The notes under the pieces: generated by a model
Seen by the model: the letters and a program-made list of their open reading frames with translations, nothing else
Told to the model about the DNA's origin: nothing
Database searches by the model: none
IMG/VR virus record: IMGVR_UViG_3300031975_001825
Span: 1 to 40,203 of that record
DNA: 40,203 bases
Origin: a virus
Direction: 5' to 3' (one strand)
Shown: piece after piece, positions 10,061 to 36,812 of the stretch
How the letters are laid out: every line of letters starts with the position of its first letter
Numbering within the stretch: position 1 is the first letter of the stretch
Program-made: the position numbers and the translations under genes

Positions 10061-10062
10061 CT

Positions 10063-14212: not shown

Positions 14213-14215
14213 TGC

Positions 14216-14410
14216 TTACAGCTCCTCGTCTTCGACGCCCTCGCTCTCGACCTCCACGCCCTCGACGGACGTGGGTTCGCTCTCTTCCGACCGCTCCTCT
14301 TCCCCGCTGTCGAGCCCGATGGCGATGCGCAGCTCGCGGGACGGGCGGCGAGCGCCGCTCATCCCGCTCTTGCGCAGGCCGCGGAGGGCGTTGCGCAAGA
14401 CGTCGCTCAC
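14216..14410 (-). CDS. Small protein with basic head and acidic tail, unknown function
   Basis: The product has 64 residues. The N-terminal 30 are basic and helical; the last 30 are almost all Glu, Ser, Asp and Val. A GTG start at 14410 overlaps the upstream stop as GTGA. Such two-faced small proteins in head regions may act in capsid assembly or completion, but no family is recognised. Confidence 0.6.
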   Translation of the reverse strand: MSDVLRNALRGLRKSGMSGARRPSRELRIAIGLDSGEEERSEESEPTSVEGVEVESEGVEDEEL

Positions 14411-15339
14411 GTCGCCGCTCCCAGCGCGTAGGTACGCGTGGACTGCGACGCCGCGAACGTGCCGGTGACCGCCATCGCCACCGTGGACTGGGCCGTTGCA
14501 TCGCTCACCGCGAGGCGCAGGAGCCGGCCCTCACGAGCCGAACCCAGGTAGGTGAGCGTGACGACGCCAGACGCGTTGGACGCGCTCACGATGCCCGAGA
14601 GCCGCGAGTGTGCGTTGATCATCGTCGCGAGGTTGTCGCCCGAGAGCGTCGCGCTCGCACCAATGGTCACCTGGTCCTCGTTCGCGCTCGCGACGACCCA
14701 TGTCAGCGTCACCGTGCCGATGGTCTGCGTGTCCGTGGTCGCGGTGAGGTTGCCGTTGTTGTCGATGGTGATCGACCCGACCGCGCGCTCACCGACGCCG
14801 CTCGCGCTCGCCAGGCTGCCGCCCGCGGGCGAGAGCCCGTTCACCGTGCCGTCGATGACAGAGATGGTCTTGCCGACCGGCCCCGTCTCGACCGCCGTGA
14901 TGATGAGGTCCGCAGAGTTGGTGCTCGCGGTGACGAGTCGATTCAACCCGTACCGGGTGTTGATGGCGGCTGCCATGTTGGTCGCCGCCGTCGCGCTCGT
15001 GCCCGAGACGTTGAACGTCCCATCACCCGACGCGGCGCCGGAGGTCACGCCCGTGATGCGATAGGCGGGAAGCCCAGGCATCGCGATGTCGATGTACTCG
15101 CCCGCCGCGATGTTCGCCCCGGTGACGGCCATCGTGAGCGCGGCCTTGGCCGGGGTGACGCTGTCGACGCGCACGCGCACCGACGACGGGACGAGGGGCA
15201 GGCCGCCGAGGAACTCCGAAAGGCGCTCGACCTCCTCGGCTGGCCTGTCCGTGGTGATGGCGACGTCGCCCGCCACGGCGCCCGGCGCCTTGCCGGTCTG
15301 CTGGGCCACTTCGATCGTGACGATTGCGTCAGTCGCCAT
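14407..15339 (-). CDS. Head decoration-like or head-completion structural protein
   Basis: The ATG at 15339 (after GGGGTGA) gives 310 residues. The sequence is Thr/Ser/Val-rich and beta-rich. It seems to hold two related modules (about 65-155 and 185-275), each with a helix of the type NLATMINAH followed by a strand and a Gly-x-x-Gly turn. The gene lies directly behind the major capsid gene, the common place for capsid decoration or stabilising proteins. An alternative GTG start one codon earlier is possible. The function is inferred from position and fold style. Confidence 0.55.
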   Translation of the reverse strand: MATDAIVTIEVAQQTGKAPGAVAGDVAITTDRPAEEVERLSEFLGGLPLVPSSVRVRVDSVTPAKAALTMAVTGANIAAGEYIDIAMPGLPAYRITGVTSGAASGDGTFNVSGTSATAATNMAAAINTRYGLNRLVTASTNSADLIITAVETGPVGKTISVIDGTVNGLSPAGGSLASASGVGERAVGSITIDNNGNLTATTDTQTIGTVTLTWVVASANEDQVTIGASATLSGDNLATMINAHSRLSGIVSASNASGVVTLTYLGSAREGRLLRLAVSDATAQSTVAMAVTGTFAASQSTRTYALGAAT

Positions 15340-15343
15340 CACT

Positions 15344-16621
15344 TCACCCCGCGCTGTTGACGATGTTGGTGCACTTCACCAGCGAGGCGGGACGCATCGG
15401 GATGATGGCCTGCTGCCAGTAGCCGCGGATCTCGAAACCCGCATTGCTCTCGAGCTCGCGGAAGAAGCGCGGATTGCTCGGCGACGAGCCCGGCAGCGTG
15501 AACGTGATGTCCGTCGCGCCAACGCGCTTGAAGCAGCTGTCCCACTCGGCCACGAACGCCTCGCCGTTCTTCACCAGCGCCGAGGCGACGATATCCACCT
15601 GGATGCCGGGGCCATAGAACGTGATGACGCCCATCGTGCCCGCATCGACGGAGCCCTTGACGGACTCAGCGTAGCGGCGCAGCGCGGCGAGGTTGTTGTT
15701 GAGGTCGTTCCACGAGGGGTACGACACCATCGCCTTCCAACGCTTGCCCTTGCGGCCTCCGCGCTGGATGCCGACCGAGATGGAGCGCAGGAAGCGCAAC
15801 ATCGTCGCCTGGCCGCTCGAGAACGTGCTCTCGTTCGCGCGCCACAGCGGGTAGGTGGTCGCCGAGATGCCGAAGAGGCTTCCGGTGTTGGTGGCCACCT
15901 TGTCGACACCCGCGAACACGCCGCTCGAGATCCAGCCGCGCGGCACGAACTTGTCCCCGACGATGATGGCGTCGAGGTCCGCGGTGTTGCCGGTGAGCGA
16001 GAGCACGACGGTCTGTCCGTCGGTGTCGAGCGACGCCGACGCGAGCACGATCGCCGCGTTGGTGTTGCGCTGCGTGGTCAGCGTGGTGTCGTAGGCGTCG
16101 AGGTCCGCGCCGACGAGCTGCAGCCACAGGCCGATCGCGCTGGACGCGGTCGTCAGGTTGAAGGTCTGCGGGCTCGACGCAGCGCCGGCCGTGTTGCTCG
16201 TGCCGATGCTGGTCTGTCCGTAGAGGATGGCCAGCTCACGATGGAAGCCCATCGTGTTGACCATGTCGCGGACGATCTCGTCGAAGACGTCGCCGAAGCT
16301 GGTTTCGTCGTTGACGCCGCGCGCCGCCGCGTCATACGCGACCTGCTCGCGCATGGTGTAGCTGGTCGCCTGGACGCTCGCGGGGAGCGTGAGACCGGGC
16401 TTGGCGTCGTTCAGCGCGTAGGCGGTGCCGCCGGTGCTGAACGTGAAGCCCTGCGCGCGCTGGACGCGGACGGGGAACTCGAAGCGATCGCCGAGGGCGG
16501 GGCGCTTCTCGAACTTGATTGCCTCAGCGAAATCGGCGTGGTCGGGGACGAGGTCCTCGAGCTTGTCGCCGTAGCGCTTCTTGAACATGCCATCGAGCGT
16601 GGTGGTCGTTTCCTGGGCCAT
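15344..16621 (-). CDS. Major capsid protein
   Basis: The ATG at 16621 has a good CGGAGAG ribosome site; an upstream in-frame start at 16639 lacks one. The 425-residue product has features of a podoviral coat protein: an N-terminal arm rich in Thr, long segments of mixed helix and strand, and a basic RGGRKGKRWKAMVSYPSW region near residue 290. Length and place (scaffold upstream, adaptor and nozzle downstream) match the P22 coat (430 residues). It forms the icosahedral shell, probably with an HK97-type fold. No maturation protease gene lies next to it. Confidence 0.85.
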   Translation of the reverse strand: MAQETTTTLDGMFKKRYGDKLEDLVPDHADFAEAIKFEKRPALGDRFEFPVRVQRAQGFTFSTGGTAYALNDAKPGLTLPASVQATSYTMREQVAYDAAARGVNDETSFGDVFDEIVRDMVNTMGFHRELAILYGQTSIGTSNTAGAASSPQTFNLTTASSAIGLWLQLVGADLDAYDTTLTTQRNTNAAIVLASASLDTDGQTVVLSLTGNTADLDAIIVGDKFVPRGWISSGVFAGVDKVATNTGSLFGISATTYPLWRANESTFSSGQATMLRFLRSISVGIQRGGRKGKRWKAMVSYPSWNDLNNNLAALRRYAESVKGSVDAGTMGVITFYGPGIQVDIVASALVKNGEAFVAEWDSCFKRVGATDITFTLPGSSPSNPRFFRELESNAGFEIRGYWQQAIIPMRPASLVKCTNIVNSAG

Positions 16622-16831
16622 GGGACTCTCCGTGAGCAAGCACCGGGTAGGTGCGGGTTCACGCGGTCGCCTCGATGCTCAGGAAGCCCCACGAGGTCGG
16701 CTTAGCCGGTGCTCGTGCGCTCGGGAGGTCTCGACGCTGCGTCGGTCGTTGAGCTTGCAGTCTGACAGACGGAAGTGCGAAGCGCAACTTCCTACTCCCA
16801 ACTTTCTGTCAGGGGTAGGAAGTTCAGCTTT
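16622..16831 (-). other. Intergenic leader between scaffold and capsid genes with competing hairpins
   Basis: This is the longest gap in the structural block (210 bp). Three pairings are visible: CTGACAGA/TCTGTCAG (16762-16769 with 16805-16812), GGAAGTGCG/CGC-A-ACTTCC (16771-16792), and the perfect 10-bp pair AACTTCCTAC/GTAGGAAGTT (16786-16795 with 16815-16824). The first two can coexist; the third excludes both. An 8-bp pair AGCACCGG/CCGGTGCT (16639-16646 with 16706-16713) lies nearer the capsid gene. No U-tract follows, so this is not a simple terminator. It may be a processing or stability element that raises capsid expression. Confidence 0.6.
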
Positions 16832-20188: not shown

Positions 20189-21603
20189 CGTCTCCCCCTT
20201 CGCGCTCCCACGAACGCCAGTGACTCATTCGCCGGGCGTTCCGGCACGAGAATCGTGTGCGTGTTCGCGCTCACCATCGGGTCCAGCGCGGGGTACGGGT
20301 TGCGGCTGCGGTTCAGGTGCCGCGACCAGTAGTTGAGCGCTGCCACGCCGTCGAAGTGCCCGAAGCCTTCGACGCGCTCGAAGTCGCGCCCAGGCACGCG
20401 CCAGATAGCCGTGCGAGCGTGGGCGCGTAGCTGAACGCAGCGCGGGTGCACGCGCATCCGACCGGAGCCGATGCGCACGCGCAGGCGGTTCACGGCAGCG
20501 CTCAGGTCGTCTTTTGCAGCCGAGAGCCAGTGCCGCCCGTTGGCCTCGTTCAGCTCTGCCACGATGAACGGCGGGGCGTCAGCGTGACGCGCGACCATGG
20601 GCGCGCCATCGCGGCCCACCTTCGACAGCTCGCCCCATAGCTCGAGCTCCATCGCCCTGATGTCGTCGTCAATCGTCCTCGACGTCGCGCGCTGCCAGGT
20701 GAGCTCGCCCTCGATGACGTCCAGGTCCGCGCGGAAGTCGTAGTATCCGAACACGGCGAAGCTCAGGTCAGCGTATCCGACATCGAGCGCGACCTGGTAG
20801 AAGCGATGCGGCGGCGCGACGTGCTCGACGCAGACGGCGGCCTCTTGCTCGATCCACTCCGGCAGCACGGCGCGCGTCGAGTCCACGACGTCGCGGGCGA
20901 GCCCCTCACGCTGCCACGCAACCGAGTCCTCGCCGCCAGCCTCGGCCGCGTACTCGGCGGCCTGCTCCGCTGTGATGTGCGGCGCGTCATGGATGGTGCG
21001 GTGAACGAAGGCGCCCTCTGCCTCGGCACGAGCGCAGTAGAGCGTGAACGGGTGGGCGGGCGTCACGGGCGGCGTGCTGATGAGGAAGATTCGCCCGTCC
21101 GTCGTGATGAGCTGCGGCAGCAGCACCGACTGAACGAGATACTCCAGGTCGTCCACGAAACCCGCCTCGTCGACGATGGCCAGATCCGTTGAGACGCCGC
21201 GCAGCCGGTCGGCCCCGCCTGAGTCCACGCCTGCGACGTGGAGCTCGGAGCCATTGGGGAACACGAGCACACCCTCTGCGAGCTTCCACTCAGGCATGAT
21301 GTCGGGTGGGCAGTCCTCGAGGAGCATCCGCAAGTGCGGCCGCACGATGGTGCGTACCATCTTCGCGGTGGGCGCCGCGTAGCGCACCTGCGCGCCCGGC
21401 TTCTGTAGACACATCTCGACGCCGATGGCGACCGCGAGGACGCTCTTGCCCCAACGTCGCGCGCACTTGGCCACGAAGCGACGCGACGCAGAGGCGCACA
21501 GCGCATCGCGCACCCGCTCTTGGTCCTCGTGGAGCAGGTACGACAGGTCCCCCGCGCGCCAAAGCGCGTGAGTCACCGCGAGCGGGTCGAGCGCAGGCGT
21601 CAA
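20185..21603 (-). CDS. Terminase large subunit
   Basis: A TTG at 21603-21601, overlapping the TGA of the upstream mini-gene, is the best start and gives 472 residues; a longer frame to 21942 is unlike protein at its N-terminus. The ATPase domain shows a Walker A of terminase type (CARRWGKS, residues 47-54), Walker B LAIVDEAG (Asp145-Glu146) and the coupling motif LISTPP near residue 172. The C-terminal nuclease domain begins with VALDVGYAD near residue 265, whose Asp would bind metal. The enzyme pumps and cuts DNA at the portal. A TTG start is unusual and could limit its level. Confidence 0.85.
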   Translation of the reverse strand: MTPALDPLAVTHALWRAGDLSYLLHEDQERVRDALCASASRRFVAKCARRWGKSVLAVAIGVEMCLQKPGAQVRYAAPTAKMVRTIVRPHLRMLLEDCPPDIMPEWKLAEGVLVFPNGSELHVAGVDSGGADRLRGVSTDLAIVDEAGFVDDLEYLVQSVLLPQLITTDGRIFLISTPPVTPAHPFTLYCARAEAEGAFVHRTIHDAPHITAEQAAEYAAEAGGEDSVAWQREGLARDVVDSTRAVLPEWIEQEAAVCVEHVAPPHRFYQVALDVGYADLSFAVFGYYDFRADLDVIEGELTWQRATSRTIDDDIRAMELELWGELSKVGRDGAPMVARHADAPPFIVAELNEANGRHWLSAAKDDLSAAVNRLRVRIGSGRMRVHPRCVQLRAHARTAIWRVPGRDFERVEGFGHFDGVAALNYWSRHLNRSRNPYPALDPMVSANTHTILVPERPANESLAFVGARRGRR

Positions 21604-23638: not shown

Positions 23639-24339
23639 CGGCCCACCCGTCGCATGTCGGCCCCGCGCCAGCTCTCGATGCGCCCGTGCTCAGCGAGCCG
23701 CGAGAGCAGCCGCGACGAGGCGCGCGCGTCGTCGGTGCTCCCGCCATAGCGCGCTTCGAACTCCGCCCGCGGCAGGTTGCCCACCAGCATCGTTGGCAGC
23801 CCTCGAGCGTGGCGGATGCCGACGAGCTCCTCGACCATGCCGACCGCCGTCTCGACGTTGCGCTCGGTCTTGAGCTCGTTGACGATGGCCAGGCGGCAGC
23901 CAAGGAACGCCTCCCAGCGCTCGCGCTGCGGGCCCCACTGCGACGCGTAGGCCAGTTCGGCATCGCGAGCCATCATCGCCATGCCGCTGCCGCAGCGACC
24001 GACGGCCCACGCGGCGGCAACGCTCTTGCCCACGCCGACCGTCGAGAGCAGCACCAGGGTGCGCGGCGTGCGCTTCTGCGTGAACGCCTGCCACCACGAT
24101 CGCGTGGCCTTGAGCGCCGGCGTGGGCTCGATGCGGCCAGTTGCGATGCGCTGGCGCATGTCGCCGTCAACGTCGATGCCGCTGAGCGCGATGGCCTTCG
24201 CGGTGCGCGCCGCGAGCTTGGCGGCGTGGCGTGCGAGCTCGGCGGCCTTCTCGGCCTCGAGCTCGCGGCGGCGCTCCTCGCTCGCGTCGAAGTCGAGCGC
24301 GTGCATGGTCTTGCTCAGGAGTGCGGCTAGGTCGGTCAC
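23635..24339 (-). CDS. DnaC-like helicase loader ATPase
   Basis: A GTG at 24339 gives 234 residues. An N-terminal helical part (1-70) precedes an AAA+ core with Walker A (STVGVGKS, about 99-106). The region GLPTMLVGNL, the YGG motif and an Arg-containing SSRLLSRL segment follow as in DnaC/DnaI. These proteins place the DnaB helicase on the origin. The Walker B place reads IVNE (Asn155-Glu156), where the family has Asp-Asp or Asp-Glu. The gene follows the initiator in the same operon, as in phages that recruit host helicase. No phage helicase is seen. Confidence 0.75.
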   Translation of the reverse strand: MTDLAALLSKTMHALDFDASEERRRELEAEKAAELARHAAKLAARTAKAIALSGIDVDGDMRQRIATGRIEPTPALKATRSWWQAFTQKRTPRTLVLLSTVGVGKSVAAAWAVGRCGSGMAMMARDAELAYASQWGPQRERWEAFLGCRLAIVNELKTERNVETAVGMVEELVGIRHARGLPTMLVGNLPRAEFEARYGGSTDDARASSRLLSRLAEHGRIESWRGADMRRVGR

Positions 24340-24620
24340 TTGGCACCTCGCATCGGGCACCCCGCTGGCGGCGGCGCCTCGGGGTCCACGTGCCAGCCCT
24401 GCGGGCACCTGGGTTGGCTGCGCTGGACCTCGGCAACCGAGCGCTCGTGATCGCACGACCAGCCCCCGGAGGTTGGTTCGCACCACCGGCAATCGCCGCA
24501 CCGCCGGAGCACCGGGAGCATGCGCACGAGCTTTGCGCGTCGACGCCAAGCCCGGAAGTCCCACACGGTGCTCACGACGAGCATGGCGAACACCAGAACC
24601 ACAGCGATCTCGTTGGTCAT
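24336..24620 (-). CDS. Membrane-anchored Cys-rich (zinc-ribbon-like) protein
   Basis: The ATG at 24620 (TGATG overlap with the initiator gene, ribosome site AGGTGG) gives 94 residues. One membrane helix (about 3-21) is followed by a basic stretch (WRRRAK). A cytoplasmic or periplasmic domain then carries CGDCRWC and three more Cys (SCD, RCP, GCP). Six Cys could bind one or two zinc ions or form disulfides. Its role is unknown; its place in the replication block may be accidental. Confidence 0.6.
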   Translation of the reverse strand: MTNEIAVVLVFAMLVVSTVWDFRAWRRRAKLVRMLPVLRRCGDCRWCEPTSGGWSCDHERSVAEVQRSQPRCPQGWHVDPEAPPPAGCPMRGAK

Positions 24621-26408: not shown

Positions 26409-26590
26409 GCGCGCACCTCGCGCCCATCCCGGCCGCGGTACGCGATGGGCTCATCGTCGGTCGGCGGCTTCACGACGCCGCGCTTCTCAGCGACGACGCG
26501 CATGGTGTAGAGCGAGAGCATCGCGCCCAGCACACACGACCAGAACGCGGCCACAGCGACCGCGTCGACAAGATCGAGCGCGCGCCTCAT
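26405..26590 (-). CDS. Small membrane protein of the early leftward operon
   Basis: The product has 61 residues: one membrane helix (about 9-30), then a basic and acidic tail (about 35-61). The ATG at 26590 overlaps the Cro-like stop as ATGA. Small membrane proteins near immunity genes are sometimes superinfection-exclusion factors, but this is only a positional hint. Confidence 0.55.
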   Translation of the reverse strand: MRRALDLVDAVAVAAFWSCVLGAMLSLYTMRVVAEKRGVVKPPTDDEPIAYRGRDGREVRA

Positions 26591-26829
26591 GACGCCACCT
26601 GGTCTGCGAGCCCCACCAGCTCGGCCGCCGTCATCACGTCGCCGTCGAAGTCGTCAGCAACCGCGCGACTTGCAGCCTCGATGCGCAATGCCGTCGGGAC
26701 GGTGAAGCGGTGGCGCCCGTTGAGCACTTCGTAGAAGCGAGCAACCGCCATTTCGCGGGGCTTACAGGCTCCTGCGACGGCTTTAAGCCCCTTCCAACCA
26801 TGGCGCCTCTTGTACTCGCTGAGATCCAT
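26587..26829 (-). CDS. Cro-like HTH regulator (YdaS-type)
   Basis: From the ATG at 26829 the product has 80 residues. It opens MDLSEYKRRHGWKGLKAVAGAC, in which HGW and the following helix resemble YdaS-type Cro proteins, and continues with a helix-turn-helix region around residues 20-45 (MAVARFYEVLNGRHRF). It is divergent from the XRE repressor and is first in the leftward operon, which fits a lytic switch protein. In-frame ATG codons at 26838 and 26880 are alternatives. No clear ribosome site precedes any of them, so a short or leaderless message is possible. Confidence 0.65.
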   Translation of the reverse strand: MDLSEYKRRHGWKGLKAVAGACKPREMAVARFYEVLNGRHRFTVPTALRIEAASRAVADDFDGDVMTAAELVGLADQVAS

Positions 26830-26925
26830 GGCTAGCATGGTACGCAAATGCGGCCCGCGGCGCAAGCTCCAATAGTACACAAGTCAGAATCTTACGCTCT
26901 TGCGTACGGTAGCTACTGTCAGTCT
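26830..26925. promoter_or_regulatory. Divergent promoter-operator region between Cro-like and repressor genes
   Basis: Three matches to the palindrome GTACNCANNTGNGTAC lie here: 26840-26855 (10 of 12 defined bases), 26875-26890 (9 of 12) and 26892-26907 (10 of 12). A leftward -10 hexamer TACTAT reads on the minus strand at 26877-26872 and overlaps the middle operator. A rightward -10-like TACTGT at 26914-26919 would start transcription close to 26926. No good -35 box is seen for either direction, so activator help or another sigma preference is possible. Confidence 0.7.
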
Positions 26926-26964
26926 GTGAACGCGGCACGCGTCAACAGCGACGAGCCCCGGACG

Positions 26965-27357
26965 ATGGTGTCTGGTGCGACGATTGGGGAGCGCATCGCT
27001 ACTCGGCTGGACCAGCTCGGCTGGTCTCAAGCGGAGCTCGCGCGGCGCCTGGGCATTGAGCGCAAGGGCACAGTCGGCGACTGGATACGGGGCAGGCAGG
27101 ACCCCTCAGCCGACTACCTACGCCGTCTCTCTGTGGTGCTTGAGATGACGCTCGAGGAGCTTCTGGGGGTTGCGGACGGCCAAGATCCGCCATTCGCAGC
27201 GTGGGCCGTGTTTCTTGAGACCCCGGAGGGTCTGAGCGTCACCCCGGACGAAAGGCGCGCGCTGGCGTCGTTCATGTGGCCAAGCGAGCCCACGGCAACG
27301 CAATACGCGATGCTGCTCGGCGTGGTCCGCATGGGCCCGCCGCGCGGCTCAGCCTAG
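26965..27357 (+). CDS. XRE-family CI-like repressor without peptidase domain
   Basis: The ATG at 26965 gives 130 residues; a GTG at 26926 would add 13 and could be leaderless if TACTGT is its -10. The N-terminal DNA-binding domain is an XRE HTH (ERIATRLDQLGWSQAELARRLGI, then VGDWIRGRQDPSADYLRRLS, residues about 8-60). The C-terminal 60 residues do not look like the S24/LexA peptidase that RecA triggers in lambda CI. Induction must therefore differ from lambda. It is divergent from the Cro-like gene and probably binds the palindromes next to it. Confidence 0.8.
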   Translation: MVSGATIGERIATRLDQLGWSQAELARRLGIERKGTVGDWIRGRQDPSADYLRRLSVVLEMTLEELLGVADGQDPPFAAWAVFLETPEGLSVTPDERRALASFMWPSEPTATQYAMLLGVVRMGPPRGSA

Positions 27358-27618: not shown

Positions 27619-27656
27619 TTGACGGGTACTCAAGTGCGTACTACGGTCATGCGTAC
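27619..27656 (+). promoter_or_regulatory. Rightward early promoter with two operators
   Basis: A sigma70-type promoter reads TTGACG (27619-27624), 17-bp spacer, TACGGT (27642-27647). The spacer's last 16 bases plus its end (27626-27641) form GTACTCAAGTGCGTAC, a 12-of-12 match to the operator palindrome. A second site (27641-27656, 9 of 12) abuts it over the -10 and start region. Repressor here would block RNA polymerase directly. The first gene begins at 27675 after an ideal AGGAGGAAC ribosome site. Confidence 0.85.
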
Positions 27657-27674: not shown

Positions 27675-27866
27675 ATGACCCCCGCCCCCGCCGCCGTCCC
27701 AATCCCCCGCCGCCTCGATCTGCCGCGCATCGAGTCGCCGCGCGACGCCTACGAGATGCCCGGCGTCGACGTGGTGTCGGTGCGCGTCTGCATGGTGTTG
27801 GTCGAGGTGTGCGCAGCCGTCCGGCGCGACGAGCGCCAGCTCGCTCTCCCCGGGGTGTCGCTGTGA
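27675..27866 (+). CDS. First gene of rightward operon, small protein of unknown function
   Basis: The product has 63 residues. The first 30 are Pro-rich and likely unfolded; the rest (VDVVSVRVCMVLVEVCAAV) is a hydrophobic helix or strand with two Cys. It has the best ribosome site in the window (AGGAGG, seven bases before ATG), so it should be strongly made once the promoter is free. Early first genes often act against host defence or metabolism; nothing shows this here. Confidence 0.65.
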   Translation: MTPAPAAVPIPRRLDLPRIESPRDAYEMPGVDVVSVRVCMVLVEVCAAVRRDERQLALPGVSL

Positions 27867-28018
27867 CCGCCGCCGTCGTGATCGGCGACGTCGCGCTGAT
27901 AGCGGACGCGCTCGCGCAGATGAGCGTGGCGGCTGGCGAGATGCGCGGCGAGTGCACGGGCGCGCTGAGCGCCGAGCAGGTGGCGCGGCTGTCGCGCGCG
28001 CATGGGGTGGCGTCGTGA
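27863..28018 (+). CDS. Small early protein, unknown function
   Basis: The product has 51 residues from a GTG start that overlaps the previous stop (GTGA). It is helical and Ala-rich with one Cys and is followed directly by the next GTGA-coupled gene. No motif is recognised. Confidence 0.5.
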   Translation: MTAAVVIGDVALIADALAQMSVAAGEMRGECTGALSAEQVARLSRAHGVAS

Positions 28019-28323
28019 GCGCCGACCTGGACGCGCGCATCGAGCGGATGCGGGTCGAACTCCGCGCCGGGGAGGCGTATGTCGCCGAGTCGCGGCAGAC
28101 GCTCGCCGCGCTGGAGGCCGAGCGCGAGGCGCTGGCGCAGTCGTACCCGCGCGCCATGAAGACGGAGCCCGACGACGATGGCGACTCGGTGACGCTGGAG
28201 CGCAGCCCGCACTCTGCCACGGCGAGCGTGGAGGTGGCCGACACCCTCGCGTTCGTCACCCCCGCTGACGCTCGCCGCATGGCCACCTGGCTCGCGGCGT
28301 TCGCCGAGGAGCACGGAGCGTGA
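28015..28323 (+). CDS. Small coiled-coil protein, unknown function
   Basis: The product has 102 residues. Residues 3-45 form a coiled coil (ARIERMRVELRAGEAYVAES). An acidic linker (EPDDDGDS) and a domain with ADARRMATWLAAFAEEHGA at the end follow. The GTG start overlaps the upstream stop. The shape suggests a dimeric protein that may bind nucleic acid or another protein, but no family is clear. Confidence 0.6.
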   Translation: MSADLDARIERMRVELRAGEAYVAESRQTLAALEAEREALAQSYPRAMKTEPDDDGDSVTLERSPHSATASVEVADTLAFVTPADARRMATWLAAFAEEHGA

Positions 28324-28535
28324 CCGACTACTACGTGACCGTCTGCGCCGAATGTATGCGCGCGTCGTGCTGGCACGGCGAGGCCCTGTGCGCCCTGAGC
28401 CGCGGCGCTGACACCGAGGACGTCCGCGCGAGCGACTTGCTCACGCTCGGCCTGGAGCACCGCGACCGCTTCTCGCGCGCCAAGATCGCCGAGGTCTGCG
28501 GGCAGGTGCGCGAGTGCGACGGGGTGGCATCGTGA
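28320..28535 (+). CDS. Small Cys-rich protein, possible zinc binder
   Basis: The product has 71 residues with six Cys, including CAECMRASCWH near the N-terminus (two C-x2-C-like pairs with a nearby His). Such spacing can bind zinc. The GTG start overlaps the previous stop. Function unknown. Confidence 0.55.
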   Translation: MTDYYVTVCAECMRASCWHGEALCALSRGADTEDVRASDLLTLGLEHRDRFSRAKIAEVCGQVRECDGVAS

Positions 28536-28735
28536 CCATGCACGCGAAACTCAGCGCCCGCGAGCGCGTCATGGTCGAGCACGGCGTCGGCGTCGGCCTC
28601 GCCATCGACGAAGCGGTCCGCGGGATTGCGGCGTCCTTCGTGCGCGACGCTGAGAGCGGAGTGGAGCCGAGTGCGGCTCTTTGGCGCGATCGCATTGCCG
28701 AGGCGATGTGCGCGCTCGGGCTGGGGCGGTCATGA
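28532..28735 (+). CDS. Small helical protein, unknown function
   Basis: The product has 67 residues and starts with GTG ACC ATG; the GTG is chosen for its GTGA overlap, while the ATG two codons later is possible. It is helical (LSARERVMVEHGVGVGLAIDEAV) with no special motif. Confidence 0.5.
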   Translation: MTMHAKLSARERVMVEHGVGVGLAIDEAVRGIAASFVRDAESGVEPSAALWRDRIAEAMCALGLGRS

Positions 28736-29085
28736 CCGCCGCCGCTCACCGCATCCTGCCAGGCTCGCCGCTGCCTGCGCTCGGCCACGACATCCGGCTG
28801 CGGCCGCTGCACGCGCTGCTGCGCGACGCGATGGCGCCGCACCTCGGCGTGGAGCTCGCGCACGAGCGGGCTGCCGCGCTGCTCTCGGCGCTCGACACGG
28901 TGCGCAGCGTGCACACGCCGGACGGCGTCGCCGAGGTGACGCGCATCGTCTTCGGCGCGCGCGCCCTGACGTCGCGCCCTGGCCGGTGGGTGGAGTACCC
29001 GCGGCCGACGCTGGCGGCGTGCGAGCTGGCGGCGCAGGCCGCGTGCGCAGTGCTCGGCGACTGGGCCGCTGCGGAGGTGGCGTGA
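28732..29085 (+). CDS. Small early protein, unknown function
   Basis: The product has 117 residues with an ATGA-coupled start. It is mainly helical and Ala/His/Arg-rich, with a short beta-type patch (VTRIVFGARALTSR) in the middle. There is no signal or membrane segment. Its family is not recognised. Confidence 0.55.
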   Translation: MTAAAHRILPGSPLPALGHDIRLRPLHALLRDAMAPHLGVELAHERAAALLSALDTVRSVHTPDGVAEVTRIVFGARALTSRPGRWVEYPRPTLAACELAAQAACAVLGDWAAAEVA

Positions 29086-29396
29086 TGAGCAGCGTTTGGG
29101 TCGTGACGCACACCTCGGGCGACTACTGCCCGGCGTTCGAGCTGGTCGCTGTTCGCTTGACCGAGGCCGAGGCGGACGCTTTCGTTGCGGGGCTGGTCGC
29201 CAGGTACGACGCGGTCTTGGCACGCGTCGGTCCAGAGCCGCACGTCGACGGCCTCGACGAGGAGGACTGTCGCGCGTGGGGGGCCTGGTGGGACCAGGTG
29301 GCGACGGCCATTGAAACCGACCCGCAGATTGCGCTGGTGCGCGACGGCCGAGACGGGTTCTCGGTGCGCGAAATGCCGACCGAGGCCGGCAAGTGA
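29085..29396 (+). CDS. Small mixed alpha/beta protein, unknown function
   Basis: The product has 103 residues and begins MSSVWVVTHTSGDYCPAFELV, a strand-turn-strand pattern. A helix rich in Glu and Ala follows (TEAEADAFVAGLVARYDAVL), then an acidic Trp-rich segment and a final strand. It looks like a compact single domain. The ATG shares one base with the upstream TGA. Confidence 0.6.
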   Translation: MSSVWVVTHTSGDYCPAFELVAVRLTEAEADAFVAGLVARYDAVLARVGPEPHVDGLDEEDCRAWGAWWDQVATAIETDPQIALVRDGRDGFSVREMPTEAGK

Positions 29397-29611
29397 CCCC
29401 CTTCCTGCGCATCAGCCTCGCCCTCATCGGCGGCGACGGCGAGCCGGAGACGGTGCCGGAGACCGACCTCGACTGCGCCGCGGTGCTCGCAATGGCGGCG
29501 CTGTGGCCGGAGGAGTGCCCGACTACGAACGAGCTGGCGGACCGCTGCGGGACGCGCGCGGCGAGTGCGCCGCATGTGCTGGAGACGTGGATGCTGACGG
29601 AGGTGGTGTGA
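29393..29611 (+). CDS. Small protein with possible winged-helix pattern
   Basis: The product has 72 residues from a GTG start. The C-terminal half (CPTTNELADRCGTRAASAPHVLETW) reads like a small helix-turn-helix where the second helix follows CGT. It might bind DNA or RNA. Coupled to genes on both sides. Confidence 0.5.
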   Translation: MTPFLRISLALIGGDGEPETVPETDLDCAAVLAMAALWPEECPTTNELADRCGTRAASAPHVLETWMLTEVV

Positions 29612-30012
29612 TGCTCGTAATCAAGACGCTCGACGAAGCGAAGGCTGCCGCGTGGCGCGGCGCGTACCGCGGGCTTCGCTCGCAGGAGTGGGTGCAGTCG
29701 ATGCGCGACGGCGAGTGCGCTCTGCGCGGCGACGGTGGCCGGTGTTGCGCGGTGGGGTGGCTCTTGGTCGACGTGCCGCCTGGCACGAGGCCGTCCGGCC
29801 ACTGCCTACGGAGACTGTCCCCGCCACTGCGTATGTGGCGTGACTGCGCGAGCGACCTGGACCGCGTTGAGTTCGATTGGTTCCTGTTCGTTCTGCAAGA
29901 CAAGCACGACGCCAAGGTTGTGCAGGCGGAGATGCGCGCCGCGTTCGACGCCATCGGTCGCCGGAACGGCTGGGCCCCGCCGTCGCTGCAAGCGTGGGAG
30001 ACGCCGTCGTGA
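29611..30012 (+). CDS. Early protein of unknown function, Trp/Cys-containing
   Basis: The product has 133 residues with an ATG directly after the upstream TGA. It has helices in the N-terminal part (TLDEAKAAAWRGAYRG), a Cys-rich turn (GGRCCAVGW) near residue 45, and a C-terminal helix (KVVQAEMRAAFDAIGRRNGW). It is one of the larger proteins in this run. No family recognised. Confidence 0.6.
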   Translation: MLVIKTLDEAKAAAWRGAYRGLRSQEWVQSMRDGECALRGDGGRCCAVGWLLVDVPPGTRPSGHCLRRLSPPLRMWRDCASDLDRVEFDWFLFVLQDKHDAKVVQAEMRAAFDAIGRRNGWAPPSLQAWETPS

Positions 30013-30209
30013 CCCGCGCCGCCGCATCATACGCGCGCGCCGCCGCTGCCCACGAGCGCGCCTATCGCGACGGCCCGCCCGAGACGGACGCCGAGTGCGA
30101 GGAGTGCGGGCGCCCGTGCGCCGAGGACGCCGTGGTGTGCCCGCGCTGCGAGCCGGAGCCGGAGTGCTGTGATGCCGCTGCCCACGGGCAGCACTGCGAG
30201 TGTTGGTGA
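30009..30209 (+). CDS. Small zinc-ribbon-like protein
   Basis: The product has 66 residues. After an Ala-rich helix it carries CEECGRPC, VCPRC, ECC and CEC, ten Cys in 34 residues plus two His. Two zinc-binding knuckles (C-x2-C pairs) are plausible. GTG start, coupled at both ends. Such mini zinc proteins can bind nucleic acids or host polymerase; this is not shown here. Confidence 0.6.
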   Translation: MTRAAASYARAAAAHERAYRDGPPETDAECEECGRPCAEDAVVCPRCEPEPECCDAAAHGQHCECW

Positions 30210-30598
30210 TGACCCCGCGCGACTACTGCCCCGGCGTGCCGGACGGCTCCAACCCGGCGCACGCCTTCGTTGCCGCCGAAGGCAGGTGCCACTTCTGCGG
30301 CGTCGCTGGCCCCGCCAGCGCGTGGCGACTGGTGCACCTCATGCGCCACGCGCTCGGCGTCCGGCGCGTCAACGGCCGGTGGACCAAGCCCTACCGCAAC
30401 CGCTTCGCTGCGAGCGGCGACAACGTGGCCGCGTGGGAGGAACTGGCGCGCGCCGGGTTCGCCTCCGAGCACCTGGACGCGCTCTCGCCGTTCCGCCTGT
30501 TCCACGTCACCGACCGTGGCCGCGAGGTCGCGCTTGATGGGATCGGGTTCAAGCGGCGATGGGGATACGGGCGGCCGCTGCATGGAGACGAGGCGTGA
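30209..30598 (+). CDS. Early protein with N-terminal Cys pair, unknown function
   Basis: The product has 129 residues from an ATG that shares a base with the upstream stop. A CHFC pair lies near residue 28 and a His/Trp/Arg-rich helical domain fills the middle; the end is basic (GIGFKRRWGYGR). It may contact nucleic acid. Its first 17 bases after the start's A are identical to those of the next gene. Confidence 0.6.
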   Translation: MTPRDYCPGVPDGSNPAHAFVAAEGRCHFCGVAGPASAWRLVHLMRHALGVRRVNGRWTKPYRNRFAASGDNVAAWEELARAGFASEHLDALSPFRLFHVTDRGREVALDGIGFKRRWGYGRPLHGDEA

Positions 30599-30897
30599 CC
30601 CCGCGCGACTACGCAGCCGAGGCGCTCGACCGCGGGCGCGAACTCGAGGACGACCGCGACCGCGAGGCGGAGGCGCGCGAGGCTGCCGGCTGCGAGCGGT
30701 GCAGCTTCTGCCGCGGCGGGCTGGCCGTTGACGACGATGGCCGCGAGCGCGACTGCCCGCGCTGCGACGGCACCGCGTACGTGCTGCCGGAGTGCCGCGT
30801 CTGCGGGCACACGCTGCGCGGCGAGGACTGCGCGCCCTGCGCCGCTGCTCGTGCGCAGGCTGAGCGAGAGGAGGTGTTCGATGAATGCCCGTGGTGA
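30595..30897 (+). CDS. Small DnaJ-type zinc-finger-like protein
   Basis: The product has 100 residues. An acidic helix (about 8-30, RGRELEDDRDREAEAREAAG) leads into CERCSFCRGG, DCPRCDGTAYV, ECRVCGH and DCAPC. The C-x-x-C-x-G spacing resembles DnaJ cysteine-rich repeats, which bind two zinc ions. GTG start. It overlaps the next gene by 17 bases. Confidence 0.65.
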   Translation: MTPRDYAAEALDRGRELEDDRDREAEAREAAGCERCSFCRGGLAVDDDGRERDCPRCDGTAYVLPECRVCGHTLRGEDCAPCAAARAQAEREEVFDECPW

Positions 30898-31231
30898 ACT
30901 CTGCGAGTTCTGCGCCTGCGCCGATAGCCATTACGGCGGCTGCGAATCTGTAGAGTGCAACTGCGCGCGCGCGGCATGTCGGCGTGAGAGCGGGCGCGGA
31001 CTCGCGGAACTGCGGGACCTCGCTGACGCTGACGGGTGGAACGATGCCGATGTCATCGCCGCAAAGCGAGCTTTCAGGCTCCTGGTGACTATGGCCGAGT
31101 CGGTCGACCACATGCGACAGAGCAACGACCTGGGATGCTCGTCGCGCCTGGCCATACGTGACGGGGTGCCGTGCGGAGACTGCTCGCGCTGCATGGCCGC
31201 CCAGGTACTGCATCACCTGAGGGGCGCGTGA
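30881..31231 (+). CDS. Cys-rich early protein, unknown function
   Basis: The product has 116 residues. The ATG at 30881 has a strong GAGGAGGTG site inside the end of the previous gene. Cys cluster at the N-terminus (CEFCACAD, CESVECNCARAAC) and near the C-terminus (CGDCSRC), with a helix between. The two clusters may share zinc. It lies just before the recombination genes. Confidence 0.6.
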   Translation: MNARGELCEFCACADSHYGGCESVECNCARAACRRESGRGLAELRDLADADGWNDADVIAAKRAFRLLVTMAESVDHMRQSNDLGCSSRLAIRDGVPCGDCSRCMAAQVLHHLRGA

Positions 31232-31995
31232 CTGACGCGCTCGACGCGCTCTCGTGCGACCCGGCCGTGATGGACGCGCAGCTTGCGGAGCGGCCCGCGC
31301 GCCGAACGAACCCCTACGGCATCGGCGCGGGAGAGGTCGCCAAGGCGATGCTCTGCCTCGGACTGCGCGACATGGAGAGCGCGCCCGACTGGCTACGCAA
31401 GGAGTGCGCGCCGATGAAGCGACACGGCAACGTCCCGCGCTTCATCCTCGTGAAGGCCGGGCGCGTGGCAAAGCGCAAGATGGGCGACGCGCAGCACATC
31501 GGCGTGCGCCGCGAAGAGGAGCTTTTCGAGCGGTGGCTGCGCGAGGTCCGCGCGGGCTACCCGATGCCGCTCGACATCGACCCCGACACCGCCGTATGGG
31601 CGGGGTGGCTGCCCGACGAGTTCCCGCCGTGGCTCGACAACATGCAGCGCGCCCTGACGGTGCGCACCGATGGCTGGGCGCGCACCTGGGACGGGCGCCT
31701 AGTCACGCTCTCAATCAAGTGCGCGCGCTACGGCTACAGCAAGCCCGCATGGTGGAACGGAATCGACCGCTTGCCCTGGTACTACCAGACGCAGTGTCAG
31801 GCCGAGATGGCCGCGCTGCGCGGCAAGCACGCACTCGCGATCATCGGGTGCGGCTGGAACCGCGACGCAGACGACCCGCGCTCTGATGGCCCCGTGCGCG
31901 TGCTGCGCGAGGACCGCGACGAGTGCGCGATCGAGGAGGTCCGCGGTGCTGCTGGTGCGGCATGGGCGGCCATCCAAAAGCTACGCGCGGCCTAG
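31228..31995 (+). CDS. YqaJ-like (lambda exonuclease family) recombination nuclease
   Basis: The product has 255 residues from GTG 31228. It follows the YqaJ order: IGAGEVAKAMLCLG (about 32-45), VRREEELFERWL (about 93-104), a TDG motif (Asp148), LSIKCA (161-166) and WYYQTQCQAEMA (about 185-196). Such 5'-3' exonucleases resect DNA ends for single-strand annealing. At the core D...ExK motif the Glu is replaced by Ser162 while Lys164 remains, so activity is uncertain. The next two genes (Sak4-like ATPase and SSB) are the usual partners. Confidence 0.75.
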   Translation: MTDALDALSCDPAVMDAQLAERPARRTNPYGIGAGEVAKAMLCLGLRDMESAPDWLRKECAPMKRHGNVPRFILVKAGRVAKRKMGDAQHIGVRREEELFERWLREVRAGYPMPLDIDPDTAVWAGWLPDEFPPWLDNMQRALTVRTDGWARTWDGRLVTLSIKCARYGYSKPAWWNGIDRLPWYYQTQCQAEMAALRGKHALAIIGCGWNRDADDPRSDGPVRVLREDRDECAIEEVRGAAGAAWAAIQKLRAA

Positions 31996-32018: not shown

Positions 32019-32963
32019 ATGCAGACGACACAAGCAACGAACGGGAGCAGCGGCAAGCGGAGGATGATCCTCGCCGCGGTGACGAAGGGGCGGCAGGTGC
32101 GCCCGCAGCGGGTGGTCATCTACGGGCCGCACGGTGTGGGTAAGTCCACCTTCGCAGCGGACGCGCCAGATCCGATCTTCCTGCCCGCCGAGCACGGCAC
32201 CGACCACCTCGACATCGCACGCTTCCCGCTCGTCACGTCGTGGCGTGACGCCACCGATGCGATCGAGACGCTGCGCACAGAGGAGCACGCCTATCGCACG
32301 GCCGCACTCGACACCATCGACGCGCTAGAGCCGCACGTCTGGGCGCACACCTGCGCGACCAAGCGCAACGGCGACAAGCGCGCTGAGCACATCGAAGACT
32401 ACGGCTTCGCGAAGGGCTACATCTACGCGCTGGAGCCGTGGCAGTCGCTCCTCGAGCGGCTCGACGCCCTCGTGGACGAGCGCGGGATGAACGTCGTTCT
32501 CATCGCGCACGCACAGGTATCGACCTTCAAGAGCCCCGACACCGAGGACTTTCAGAGGTACAGCCTCAAGTTGCATCACAAGGCAAGCGCGCTCATCAGC
32601 GAGTGGGCAGATCACGTGCTCTTTGCGACGCACGAGACGCTGACGCACAAGCAGAACAACCGCGCCAAGGGCATCAGCACGGGAAACCGGCTGATCTACA
32701 CCGAGCGCACGGCGGCCTATGACGCGAAGAACCGCGGCGGGCTGCCGTCCTCTCTGCCGCTCTCGTGGGAAGCGTTCTTCACCGCGCTTGGCGGCGAGGC
32801 TCCCGAGGTGTGGCGCGACCGCATCGCGGCACTCGTGGAGCGTGCGACTCCCGAGCTTGCGGCGAAGGTCACAGCGACGGTTGCCGATGCGGGCGAGGAC
32901 TCCGCGCGGCTGGCGAAGATTCACAACAGGCTGAGCGCGGTGCTCAAGGAGAGTGGACGATGA
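32019..32963 (+). CDS. Sak4-like RecA-fold ATPase for recombination
   Basis: The product has 314 residues, ATG 32019 after AGGAGAGAG. The single-domain RecA-type core shows Walker A GPHGVGKS (36-43), a Walker B strand MNVVLIAHAQV near residue 160, and the PF13479 AAA_24-like pattern of phage Sak4 proteins. Sak4 proteins help strand annealing with a cognate SSB. The SSB-like gene follows with a four-base overlap, and the exonuclease precedes, so a three-gene recombination set is likely. Confidence 0.8.
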   Translation: MQTTQATNGSSGKRRMILAAVTKGRQVRPQRVVIYGPHGVGKSTFAADAPDPIFLPAEHGTDHLDIARFPLVTSWRDATDAIETLRTEEHAYRTAALDTIDALEPHVWAHTCATKRNGDKRAEHIEDYGFAKGYIYALEPWQSLLERLDALVDERGMNVVLIAHAQVSTFKSPDTEDFQRYSLKLHHKASALISEWADHVLFATHETLTHKQNNRAKGISTGNRLIYTERTAAYDAKNRGGLPSSLPLSWEAFFTALGGEAPEVWRDRIAALVERATPELAAKVTATVADAGEDSARLAKIHNRLSAVLKESGR

Positions 32964-33499
32964 TTTCGGCAGGACGACACAAGGCGCGGGCGGTCGAGGG
33001 TGCGCTGGGCATGACCGGCACCGGCAAGGAGCAGGTCGGGGTGATGATGGAGATCACCGCGGGTGAGCACGCGGGCGAGACCATCACCTGGTATGGCTTC
33101 TTCACCGAGAAGACGATCGAGCGCACGATGGAGTCGCTGCGTCACATGGGGTGGAGTGGTGACGACCTCTCCGACCTGACCGGCATCGACGCCAACGAGG
33201 TCACGATCGTGATCGAGCACGAGACGGGCGACGACGGCAAGGAGCGCGCGCGCGTCAAGTGGGTCAACGCTGGCGGCGGCGGACTCGCGATGCGCGATGT
33301 GATGGACGCAGACGCGGCGAAGGCGTTCGCGCAGCGCATGAAGGGCGCGGCCATCGCTTCGCGCCAAGCCATGGGCGCGCCGCCCGCGCAGCGGTCGAAC
33401 GGAGGCGGTCAACGTGGCGGCTACGGCAGCGGGAGCGGTGGCTCGCGCGGCGGCTACGACGACGACCCCGGCCCGGATGACCGGGACATTCCCTTCTGA
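32960..33499 (+). CDS. Single-stranded DNA-binding protein-like (DUF669 type)
   Basis: The product has 179 residues. The N-terminal 110 are beta-rich with VGVMMEITAGEHAGETITWYG, a pattern of the DUF669 family found in phage recombination sets. Then comes a Gly/Ser/Arg linker (about 140-165) and the acidic end DDRDIPF, the SSB tail that recruits partner proteins. It probably coats single strands made by the exonuclease and loads the Sak4-like ATPase. Confidence 0.8.
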   Translation: MISAGRHKARAVEGALGMTGTGKEQVGVMMEITAGEHAGETITWYGFFTEKTIERTMESLRHMGWSGDDLSDLTGIDANEVTIVIEHETGDDGKERARVKWVNAGGGGLAMRDVMDADAAKAFAQRMKGAAIASRQAMGAPPAQRSNGGGQRGGYGSGSGGSRGGYDDDPGPDDRDIPF

Positions 33500-33588: not shown

Positions 33589-33927
33589 ATGGCGTACGAC
33601 GGACCCGACCTAGACGACCAGCTACACGCGGCGATGATGTATGGGATCGCAGAGAGCCCGGAGGGCAGACGACGCGCGTCTGTCGAACGCCTGCACTCGG
33701 CGGCGCAGCGTGTCGTGCGTCATCTGCGATCGAACGCTCCGTGGCCGTGCGCCGAGTGCGGGCGAAAGCGGCCAGCGGACCCGCTGCGACTGCTTGAGAC
33801 CACGCTTGAGGGCGGGGTGCCCATCGTTGGCCGCGGCCCGATCTTGCACGGCTGCTCAGCGTGCAACGCGCGCGACGCGCTCGACGGGCTACACGAGGCG
33901 CTTGACGCCTTCACGAGCAAGCCGTGA
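33589..33927 (+). CDS. Small protein with zinc-type Cys pairs, unknown function
   Basis: The product has 112 residues. CAEC (about 54-57) and CSAC (about 89-92) stand 32 residues apart and may bind one zinc ion. The region between is a helix and short strands. It has its own ribosome site (GGAGG). The C-terminal helix ends the protein. Function unknown. Confidence 0.6.
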   Translation: MAYDGPDLDDQLHAAMMYGIAESPEGRRRASVERLHSAAQRVVRHLRSNAPWPCAECGRKRPADPLRLLETTLEGGVPIVGRGPILHGCSACNARDALDGLHEALDAFTSKP

Positions 33928-34675: not shown

Positions 34676-35172
34676 CCGCCGCGCGCACGCTGACGGACGC
34701 GGACACGTGGCTCGACGCGCACGAGGCCGCGACGTACACGGGGCTATCCGGGTCCCGGCTGCGCGACCTGGCGCGAGCGGGCGAGCTCCGCGAAGATGGG
34801 CGTGGCGCGCGTGGGATCCGCATGTGGAGGCGGTCCACGCTGGACGCGTGGTTTGTACGGAGGCGGGACGATGGCGAAGAGGCGAGACACGAAGCCGACC
34901 AGGTACCCAGGGATCGCGTCGACCGAGGGCGGGCACGTGGTGCGGGCGCGGGTGCGCGACCCACGGACGGGCCGCGAGCGCGACCTAAGCCGGTTCGTGG
35001 CGGGCAGCCTGCGCGACGCAAGGCGGGCACAGGACGAGATGCGCACGGAGGTGCGCGAGCTGGGGACAGTGTCGCGGACGCGATTGAGCGCATACGCGGA
35101 ACAGTGGCTCGAGCGAAAGGCGGGAACGCTACGGCCGCACACGCTGGCCAGGTACGCGGTGGCGCTGACTGA
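34672..35172 (+). CDS. Excisionase-like HTH protein; frame overlaps integrase
   Basis: The GTG at 34672 starts a MerR/excisionase-type HTH: LDAHEAATYTGLSGSRLRDLARAGEL (about 14-39), wing REDGRGARGIRMWRRSTLDAW. The domain is finished by about residue 65, yet the frame has no stop until 35172, so the protein would have 166 residues and run 302 bases inside the integrase gene in another frame. That extension is Arg/Gly/Ala-rich, as expected of shadow sequence. Excisionase bends DNA to direct prophage excision. The domain is clear; the real C-terminus is not. Confidence 0.7.
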   Translation: MTAARTLTDADTWLDAHEAATYTGLSGSRLRDLARAGELREDGRGARGIRMWRRSTLDAWFVRRRDDGEEARHEADQVPRDRVDRGRARGAGAGARPTDGPRARPKPVRGGQPARRKAGTGRDAHGGARAGDSVADAIERIRGTVARAKGGNATAAHAGQVRGGAD

Positions 35173-36043
35173 GCACATCTTCCCGACGCTCGGGGAATGG
35201 TACCTCGATGCGCTCACACCGGACGCGATCGTTGCGTGGCTAGGCGACATGCAGAGCAAGACGCACGACGGCCGCCCGTACAACCCGCGCACCATCAACG
35301 GCTGGCTCCGCGTGCTGCGGACGATGCTGGCCGACGCGTTCGTGGAACGCCGCCTCGGCCCATCGCCAGCGTCGCGCGTCCACCAGCTCACGGAGGCGCC
35401 CGTCTACACCGACGAGGATCCGAACATCCTCAGCGCCGAGGACTTGGGCGCGCTGCTCCTGGCGCTGCGCGAGCGCTCGCCCGTGTGGTTCGCGCTGTTC
35501 ACGACCAAGGCCATGCTGGGCTTGAGGACGTCCGAGGTGACCGCGCTCAAGTGGAGCGACATCGACGGCGACACGCTCAAGGTGCAGCGGTCCGCGGTGC
35601 GGGGTCACGTGGACGAGCGCACGAAGACGAAGCGCACGCGCTCGCTGCCGATGCCGCCCGCCGTGGTCGCGGTGCTGGCCGAGCAGCGGGCGCGCCTCGA
35701 AGCGGCCGCGCGCGCCGCCTCACAGGCTCGCGGCGAGATCGTGCCGTGCTCGCGCTGGGTGTTCCCGAGCGCGACCGACGCGCCGCGCTACGGCTCGACG
35801 CTGGCCAAGCCGTTGCGGGCCGCGATGAGGGCTGCCGGGCTCGAGCGCCGGCTCACGCCGCACGGCCTGCGACGCACGCTCAACGACGTGCTGCGGCTGG
35901 TCGCGAGCGCCGACGTGCAGCGCGCGATCGTGGGGCACTCGTCGGAGAAGATGAGCGAGCACTATTCGTGGGTGACGCCATCGGAGCGGGCCGGTGCGAT
36001 CGCGCGGGTGGCCGATGTGGTGAAGCTGGAGGCGAAGCGATGA
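34871..36043 (+). CDS. int: Tyrosine-recombinase integrase
   Basis: The ATG at 34871 follows GGAGGCGGG and gives 390 residues; longer frames begin in shadow sequence. An arm-binding N-terminus (about 1-60) and a SAM-like core-binding domain (about 70-165) precede the catalytic domain. All catalytic residues are present: Arg219 (GLRTSE), Lys254, His331 and Arg334 (TPHGLRRT), His356 (VGHSS) and the nucleophile Tyr365 (SEHYSW). The enzyme joins attP to a host attB. The tRNA-like core lies right behind the gene, as in most tRNA-targeting phages. Confidence 0.95.
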   Translation: MAKRRDTKPTRYPGIASTEGGHVVRARVRDPRTGRERDLSRFVAGSLRDARRAQDEMRTEVRELGTVSRTRLSAYAEQWLERKAGTLRPHTLARYAVALTEHIFPTLGEWYLDALTPDAIVAWLGDMQSKTHDGRPYNPRTINGWLRVLRTMLADAFVERRLGPSPASRVHQLTEAPVYTDEDPNILSAEDLGALLLALRERSPVWFALFTTKAMLGLRTSEVTALKWSDIDGDTLKVQRSAVRGHVDERTKTKRTRSLPMPPAVVAVLAEQRARLEAAARAASQARGEIVPCSRWVFPSATDAPRYGSTLAKPLRAAMRAAGLERRLTPHGLRRTLNDVLRLVASADVQRAIVGHSSEKMSEHYSWVTPSERAGAIARVADVVKLEAKR

Positions 36044-36280: not shown

Positions 36281-36493
36281 ATGAGCAGCAAGAGCACAAG
36301 CGAACTGTGTGGGCCGGTGAGCCACGACGAGGCCCAGGAGATCGCGCTCCGCTTCGTGGATGGGCACTTCGGCAACGACAACGAGCGGCCCCGGGTGAGC
36401 ATCCCAGCGAACCCGAGGCGCGACGATGACCTGCGCCTGTTGGCCTACATCGAGCAGCAGCGCGCCACCGGAGGCAGCGATGCCGAGCGATGA
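36281..36493 (+). CDS. Small protein behind attP, unknown function
   Basis: The product has 70 residues, ATG after GGAGGGTGAG. It has helix SHDEAQEIALRFVDGHFG (about 14-31), then a polar segment and a final helix. It is acidic and lacks known motifs. In the prophage it would lie at the other end from the integrase, so it may be expressed in the lysogen. Confidence 0.6.
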   Translation: MSSKSTSELCGPVSHDEAQEIALRFVDGHFGNDNERPRVSIPANPRRDDDLRLLAYIEQQRATGGSDAER

Positions 36494-36812
36494 CCGCGAG
36501 CCGCGGGTGACGTGGACGGCGCGACTGATTCCGCGAGACATCCCCGTCGCGGAGCTTGAGGCAGCCGCGAAGGCCGCGGATGCCGCCGCGTACCGGCGCG
36601 CGCGCCGGTGGCTCGTGCCGCCCGCCGACCGCGAGGCAGCGATGTCCGCGCTGCTCGACGTGGTGGAGGCTGCGGAGGTGTGCGCCGGGTGTCGGCTGCG
36701 CGGCCTGCGCACGGCGCATCCGGGGTGCCGCTGCGAGGGATGCGTGCTGCGGCGCGCCCTCGACGCGTGGCGGGGTGAGACGGCGGACGGAGGCAGCGAT
36801 GACGAGAGCTGA
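36480..36812 (+). CDS. Small Cys-containing protein, unknown function
   Basis: The ATG at 36480 (ribosome site GGAGGC) gives 110 residues. Helices in the first 70 residues lead to CAGCRLRG, CRCEGC, a possible single zinc site. It overlaps the previous gene by 14 bases. Function unknown. Confidence 0.6.
   Translation: MPSDDREPRVTWTARLIPRDIPVAELEAAAKAADAAAYRRARRWLVPPADREAAMSALLDVVEAAEVCAGCRLRGLRTAHPGCRCEGCVLRRALDAWRGETADGGSDDES

Follow-up and report, generated by a model that had tools for sequence, protein, structure and literature searches.

What is the run of thirteen tiny genes (g1-g13) at positions 27675-31231 of the virus record IMGVR_UViG_3300031975_001825? The window, i.e. the whole stretch of DNA that was analysed, is the entire IMG/VR record of this virus with 40,203 bases and a GC content of 70.8 %. 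Judged by its terminase and portal genes on the minus strand and its CI-like repressor and integrase genes on the plus strand, the virus is a temperate tailed phage. The genes g1-g13 likely constitute the accessory part of a delayed-early operon resembling the pL operon of phage lambda. A sequence-only reading had described them as tiny coupled genes under a repressed promoter, many of them zinc-knuckle-like, in the kind of early operon that often harbours inhibitors of host defences or host polymerases.

Thirteen open reading frames (ORFs) of 51-133 amino acids (aa) tile the interval, which lies between the repressor and the integrase gene, and TGA is the stop codon of all of them. Of the 12 internal junctions, 11 have an RTGA stop/start overlap, and so has the step from g13 to the downstream gene g14 (31228). 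Nine of these overlaps, the step to g14 among them, are four-base RTGA; the other three are TGATG, where a GTG start is also possible (GTGATG; 29082, 29608, 30206). The g12/g13 junction differs by a 17-base overlap, with an AGGAGG ahead of the ATG of g13. With ORFs of at least 50 aa counted, the longest RTGA/TGATG chain had a length of 12 in the real sequence and of not more than six when the region was dinucleotide-shuffled 1000 times. Scored by a codon model built from other genes of this phage, g1-g12 were positive, each with its own frame best, g10 with a weak score. The tiling, the shuffles and the codon usage bear out the thirteen tiny coupled genes, and the proposed joining by RTGA overlaps holds for all internal junctions except g12/g13.

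Cysteine pairs are concentrated in the run. Five of its proteins (g4, g10, g11, g12 and g13) carry 12 CxxC pairs, none being present in 21 other proteins of the phage (7,964 aa), and the cysteine content is 4.6 % in the run versus 0.73 % in these 21 proteins. Shuffling within each protein yielded 3.7 pairs on average and reached 12 in none of 5000 trials. At least five proteins with C-x2-C pairs had been noted, and five were obtained; the label zinc knuckle has to be given up, since the C-x2-C-x4-H-x4-C (CCHC) spacing had no match in any of the five. Their cysteines resemble Cys4 sites, ribbons and, in one case, a DnaJ-type hairpin, suggesting zinc binding by g4, g10 and g12, probably also by g11 and g13. 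An RNA polymerase regulator of the TraR/Orf73 (DksA-like) type was considered and rejected: it needs C-x2-C-x17-C-x2-C, the central spacing of g10 is x10, and the Pfam family zf-TraR gave no match. Three further small proteins, each carrying two CxxC pairs, are encoded in early regions outside the run, at 33589-33927 (+), 36480-36812 (+) and 24336-24620 (-).

Upstream of g1, the CI-like repressor gene stands beside a small divergent gene that is Cro-like by position; its product had no family match in Pfam or PHROG. The CI-like protein matched phage repressor PHROGs at 3e-13 and weaker, and is 40 % identical over 42 aa to the gene in the CI position of L015, a related locus treated below. A 16-bp dyad with the consensus GTACGCWNNWGCGTAC was present, with up to two mismatches, at five places in the window: two in the gap between Cro- and CI-like genes and two directly before g1, hence ahead of both early transcripts. 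None of 300 shuffled gap pairs matched the observed dyad sharing. The fifth copy, with two mismatches, is at 21342-21357 within the terminase gene. These operator-like dyads, common to the Cro/CI gap and the region upstream of g1, support the repressed early promoter that had been proposed; the activity of the candidate promoter and the binding of CI to the dyads are predictions. Recombination genes and the integrase gene follow the run on the same strand: a probable nuclease (g14), a Sak4 single-strand annealing ATPase (g15) and an SSB-like protein (g16).

Profile searches with each protein, as the sequence-only reading had suggested, gave significant matches to PHROG families for g4 (phrog_10857), g9 (phrog_17693) and g11 (phrog_13561). 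Thus the statement that none of the products is recognisable did not stand for these three; it stood insofar as all three families are unnamed and without an assigned function. Pfam and NCBIfam, searched with all 13 proteins, and PADLOC, searched with 10, yielded no credible match and no described defence or anti-CRISPR family. The g4 family was found on nine other viral contigs with a GC content of 50-70 %, where its members lie in small-gene runs and, in many cases, close to recombination genes; in an alignment of nine sequences C9, C12, C17, W18 and C24 were invariant. Two members, on L113 (5968-6150) and L116 (5992-6165), lie among many small CxxC genes, including some for CxxCxG proteins. 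The AlphaFold2 model of g4 (pLDDT 86) had no significant structural match in the PDB and BFVD. With a Cys4-Trp motif that is shared by unrelated phages and no significant match to a solved or viral predicted structure, the g4 family is a tractable target. The g9 protein is 49 % identical over 41 aa to gp146 of Sinorhizobium phage phiN3, and g11 35 % to gene 47 of Paenibacillus phage PG1; the N-terminal CxxC segment of g11 is additional to phrog_13561. The model of g11 folded alone was discarded (pLDDT 41). Used singly as queries against viral contigs, g11, g14 and Sak4 gave no match, nor did a PDB sequence search with g12 and g14. In 377 Myxococcota genomes, phrog_13561 and g14 found one marginal match each (for g14 at E 1e-3).

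Relatives were located by the recombination genes. In GTDB genomes, 80 loci were obtained with a Sak4 profile, only one of them, L015, exceeding 47 % identity. The planctomycete chromosome CP087563 carried at least nine Sak4-like loci. The Sak4 loci L016, L038 and L094 indicate Myxococcota, and a search of the phylum to which L094 belongs (377 genomes) found the SSB-like protein in five. The host, a high-GC bacterium, is probably related to the myxobacteria. The sequence relatives of the phage indicate Myxococcota, but L015, the closest Sak4, is filed under an Actinomycetota metagenome-assembled genome on a low-coverage contig, so the placement of the host is tentative. In L015, L038, L104 and L105, small genes are followed by nuclease, Sak4 and SSB-like protein, and by an integrase where the contig extends far enough. 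The slot of small genes holds six, one, three and three genes, respectively, versus 13 here, and none was related to g1-g13 by BLAST. The same order with unrelated small genes argues for a conserved module with an exchanged cassette. With L103 and L106 included, 7 of the 18 slot genes encode CxxC motifs, compared with 4 of 55 small genes ahead of Sak4 in the general set (Fisher p 0.003), with the reservation of small numbers and of gene calls made in this analysis. CxxC-rich small genes as a general trait of Sak4 neighbourhoods were rejected on the figure of 4 in 55.

The lambda-pL-like position of the run is one where known phages harbour host-directed genes (PMC10695390, PMC9239242), which supports this part of the sequence-only reading. 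Lambda can form plaques without any single pL-operon gene other than N, although several of these genes have host-directed functions (PMC10695390). Orf73, a small pL-operon protein with six cysteines, reprograms host transcription, with lower host ribosomal transcription and a higher phage yield as the outcome (PMC9239242). From the pL layout, the dispensability in lambda and the precedent of Orf73, we read g1-g13 as accessory and mostly dispensable; their individual roles are inferred. In a lysogen, the CI-like repressor would bind the dyads at 27626-27656 and shut the promoter. Upon infection or induction, a single message would cover the small genes, nuclease, Sak4 and SSB and run toward the integrase. 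Termination-reinitiation at the RTGA overlaps would yield many small products at similar levels, mostly dispensable, which may bind host proteins or nucleic acids and favour early phage growth, and nuclease, Sak4 and SSB would recombine the phage DNA. Removal of genes without an effect on growth would be indecisive, since it applies in lambda to all pL genes but N, those of known function included.

Several observations weigh against this reading. No product of the run has an assigned function. The shared dyads are suggestive and no proof, since the consensus was drawn from the same sites that it scores, and a dyad search in L015 and L038 brought out no comparable shared dyad. A standard consensus promoter scan found no promoter, and the -10 of the candidate is poor. 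With CI upstream on the same strand, the repressor transcript could read through into the run in a lysogen. The core of g14 reads LSIKC where its family expects ExK; the glutamate is missing, and the catalytic residue may have been replaced. The codon score of g13 is slightly negative, the weakest of the thirteen, and not separated from antisense; its own frame is still the top of the three forward frames, and the gene call rests on the junctions.

At 71 % GC long false ORFs are common, and with the low scores of g13 and g10 several ORFs might be by-products of high-GC codon bias. This is very improbable: the junction chain exceeded every shuffle, the own frame was best in 12 of 13 ORFs, and g4, g9 and g11 have homologues. 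The genes g10-g13, directly upstream of g14-g16, may be zinc-dependent accessories of nuclease, Sak4 and SSB rather than host-directed, in agreement with the CxxC enrichment in the slot of the relatives. However, the Cys-rich proteins of the relatives are not homologous by BLAST and depend on our own gene calls, L038 has none, and CxxC genes occur elsewhere in this phage, so we regard this explanation as unlikely. Slightly less likely again is an anti-defence island, in which most of the thirteen proteins inhibit restriction, CRISPR or abortive systems. The proteins are small, fast-changing and poorly conserved, and the run heads the early operon as ral and gam do in lambda (PMC10695390), but the missing matches to defence and anti-CRISPR models (Pfam and NCBIfam for all 13 proteins, PADLOC for 10) argue against it; the occurrence of g4 in phages of widely differing GC and of g9 kin in Sinorhizobium phages is more like general phage housekeeping than inhibition specific to a host. 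Any single protein of the run may inhibit a defence system or a polymerase.

The accessory part of a pL-like operon therefore remains the preferred reading. It presents a bounded set of 13 small proteins at a place where model phages hold host-directed functions. The phage group probably infects Myxococcota, and few of its members have been studied. A more daring and rather improbable proposal is that g10, g12, g13 and their same-style Myxococcota counterparts are fast-evolving phage zinc proteins with one shared host target, e.g., RNA polymerase or a repair nuclease; if true, this would be a mechanism of host takeover not described before.

Table 1. Features of the early region, with positions in the window
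Feature	Position	Strand	Characteristics
Cro-like small protein	26587-26838	-	assigned from its location and its divergence from the CI-like gene; start uncertain, longest ORF to 26880
Dyad O4	26840-26855	.	GTACGCAAATGCGGCC, 2 mismatches to consensus
Dyad O3	26892-26907	.	TTACGCTCTTGCGTAC, 1 mismatch to consensus
CI-like HTH repressor	26926-27357	+	HTH_3 2.1e-11; start uncertain, longest ORF from 26848
Candidate early promoter	27619-27647	+	TTGACG, 17 bp, TACGGT; predicted from sequence
Dyad O1	27626-27641	.	GTACTCAAGTGCGTAC, 1 mismatch; within promoter spacer
Dyad O2	27641-27656	.	CTACGGTCATGCGTAC, 2 mismatches; covers -10
g1	27675-27866	+	63 aa, no assigned role; AGGAGG upstream
g2	27863-28018	+	51 aa, no assigned role
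g3	28015-28323	+	102 aa; weak match to phrog_8117 (9e-4)
g4	28320-28535	+	71 aa; phrog_10857 (4.3e-6); Cys4 motif C-x2-C-x4-C-W-x5-C
g5	28532-28735	+	67 aa, no assigned role
g6	28732-29085	+	117 aa, no assigned role
g7	29085-29396	+	103 aa, no assigned role
g8	29393-29611	+	72 aa; weak, not significant similarity to HTH_20 (0.024)
g9	29611-30012	+	133 aa; phrog_17693 (1.9e-5); motif CAxRGxxGRxCAxGWL
g10	30009-30209	+	66 aa; zinc-ribbon-like C-x2-C-x10-C-x2-C and Cys-rich tail
g11	30209-30598	+	129 aa; phrog_13561 (2.0e-10, residues 42-109) after N-terminal CxxC segment (one pair)
g12	30595-30897	+	100 aa; two CxxCxG repeats (DnaJ-type), second ribbon; 5 CxxC
g13	30881-31231	+	116 aa; 11 Cys, 3 CxxC, no assigned role
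g14, YqaJ/RecE-like nuclease (probable, weak)	31228-31995	+	255 aa; YqaJ 0.19, phrog_434 0.018
g15, Sak4 single-strand annealing ATPase	32019-32963	+	phrog_124 6.1e-42; AAA_24 2e-47
g16, SSB-like protein	32960-33499	+	C-terminus DDRDIPF
Integrase	34871-36043	+	phrog_1 5.4e-51; longest ORF from 34796

In the recombination module, g14 and g15 are separated by 23 bases, g15 having its own ribosome site, and g15 and g16 overlap by ATGA. The assignment of g14 as a YqaJ-like nuclease is putative. That of g16 as an SSB-like protein is likewise predicted, from its tail and synteny: an acidic DIPF, DVPF or EIPF end was present in 6 of 9 members of its family, and DUF669 matched 3 of 9 (best 2.9e-4). 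No relative on the DNA level was found among 50,697 phage records with half of the window as query. Terminase scans yielded four distant contigs, the early genes being absent from all four, and a terminase alignment had no match in GTDB genomes. Large putative structural proteins of 431-932 aa without a PHROG match at 0.01 are encoded at 4820-16639 (-).

Three known or related systems are close to this locus. The Sak4 of phage HK620 is fully active only with the neighbouring SSB and its tail (PMC5928155), which fits the pairing of g15 and g16; in both phages Sak4 adjoins an SSB or SSB-like protein whose acidic tail ends in an aromatic residue (NDYPPF in HK620), whereas g16 is nearer to DUF669 than to any scored SSB family and the other neighbour genes differ. 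The loci L015, L038, L104 and L105 share with the phage the succession from small genes to a DUF669-like SSB and integrase, and all but L038 also have small CxxC genes, but their nuclease is of another type with a RecB/Cas4-like N-terminus, and their one to six small genes are unrelated. Compared with the lambda pL operon, neither N, cIII, kil, gam nor ral is recognisable in this phage, Sak4 and SSB take the place of Bet, and the small genes lack sequence homology. Common to both are CI just upstream on the same strand, repressor sites at both early promoters (predicted here), small genes that are host-directed or dispensable (presumably so here), some of them for CxxC proteins (Orf73 in lambda), and then a YqaJ-type exonuclease (putative here), an annealase and the integrase. 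The arrangement of the operon is thus ordinary and already known from lambda; the small proteins are its new members.

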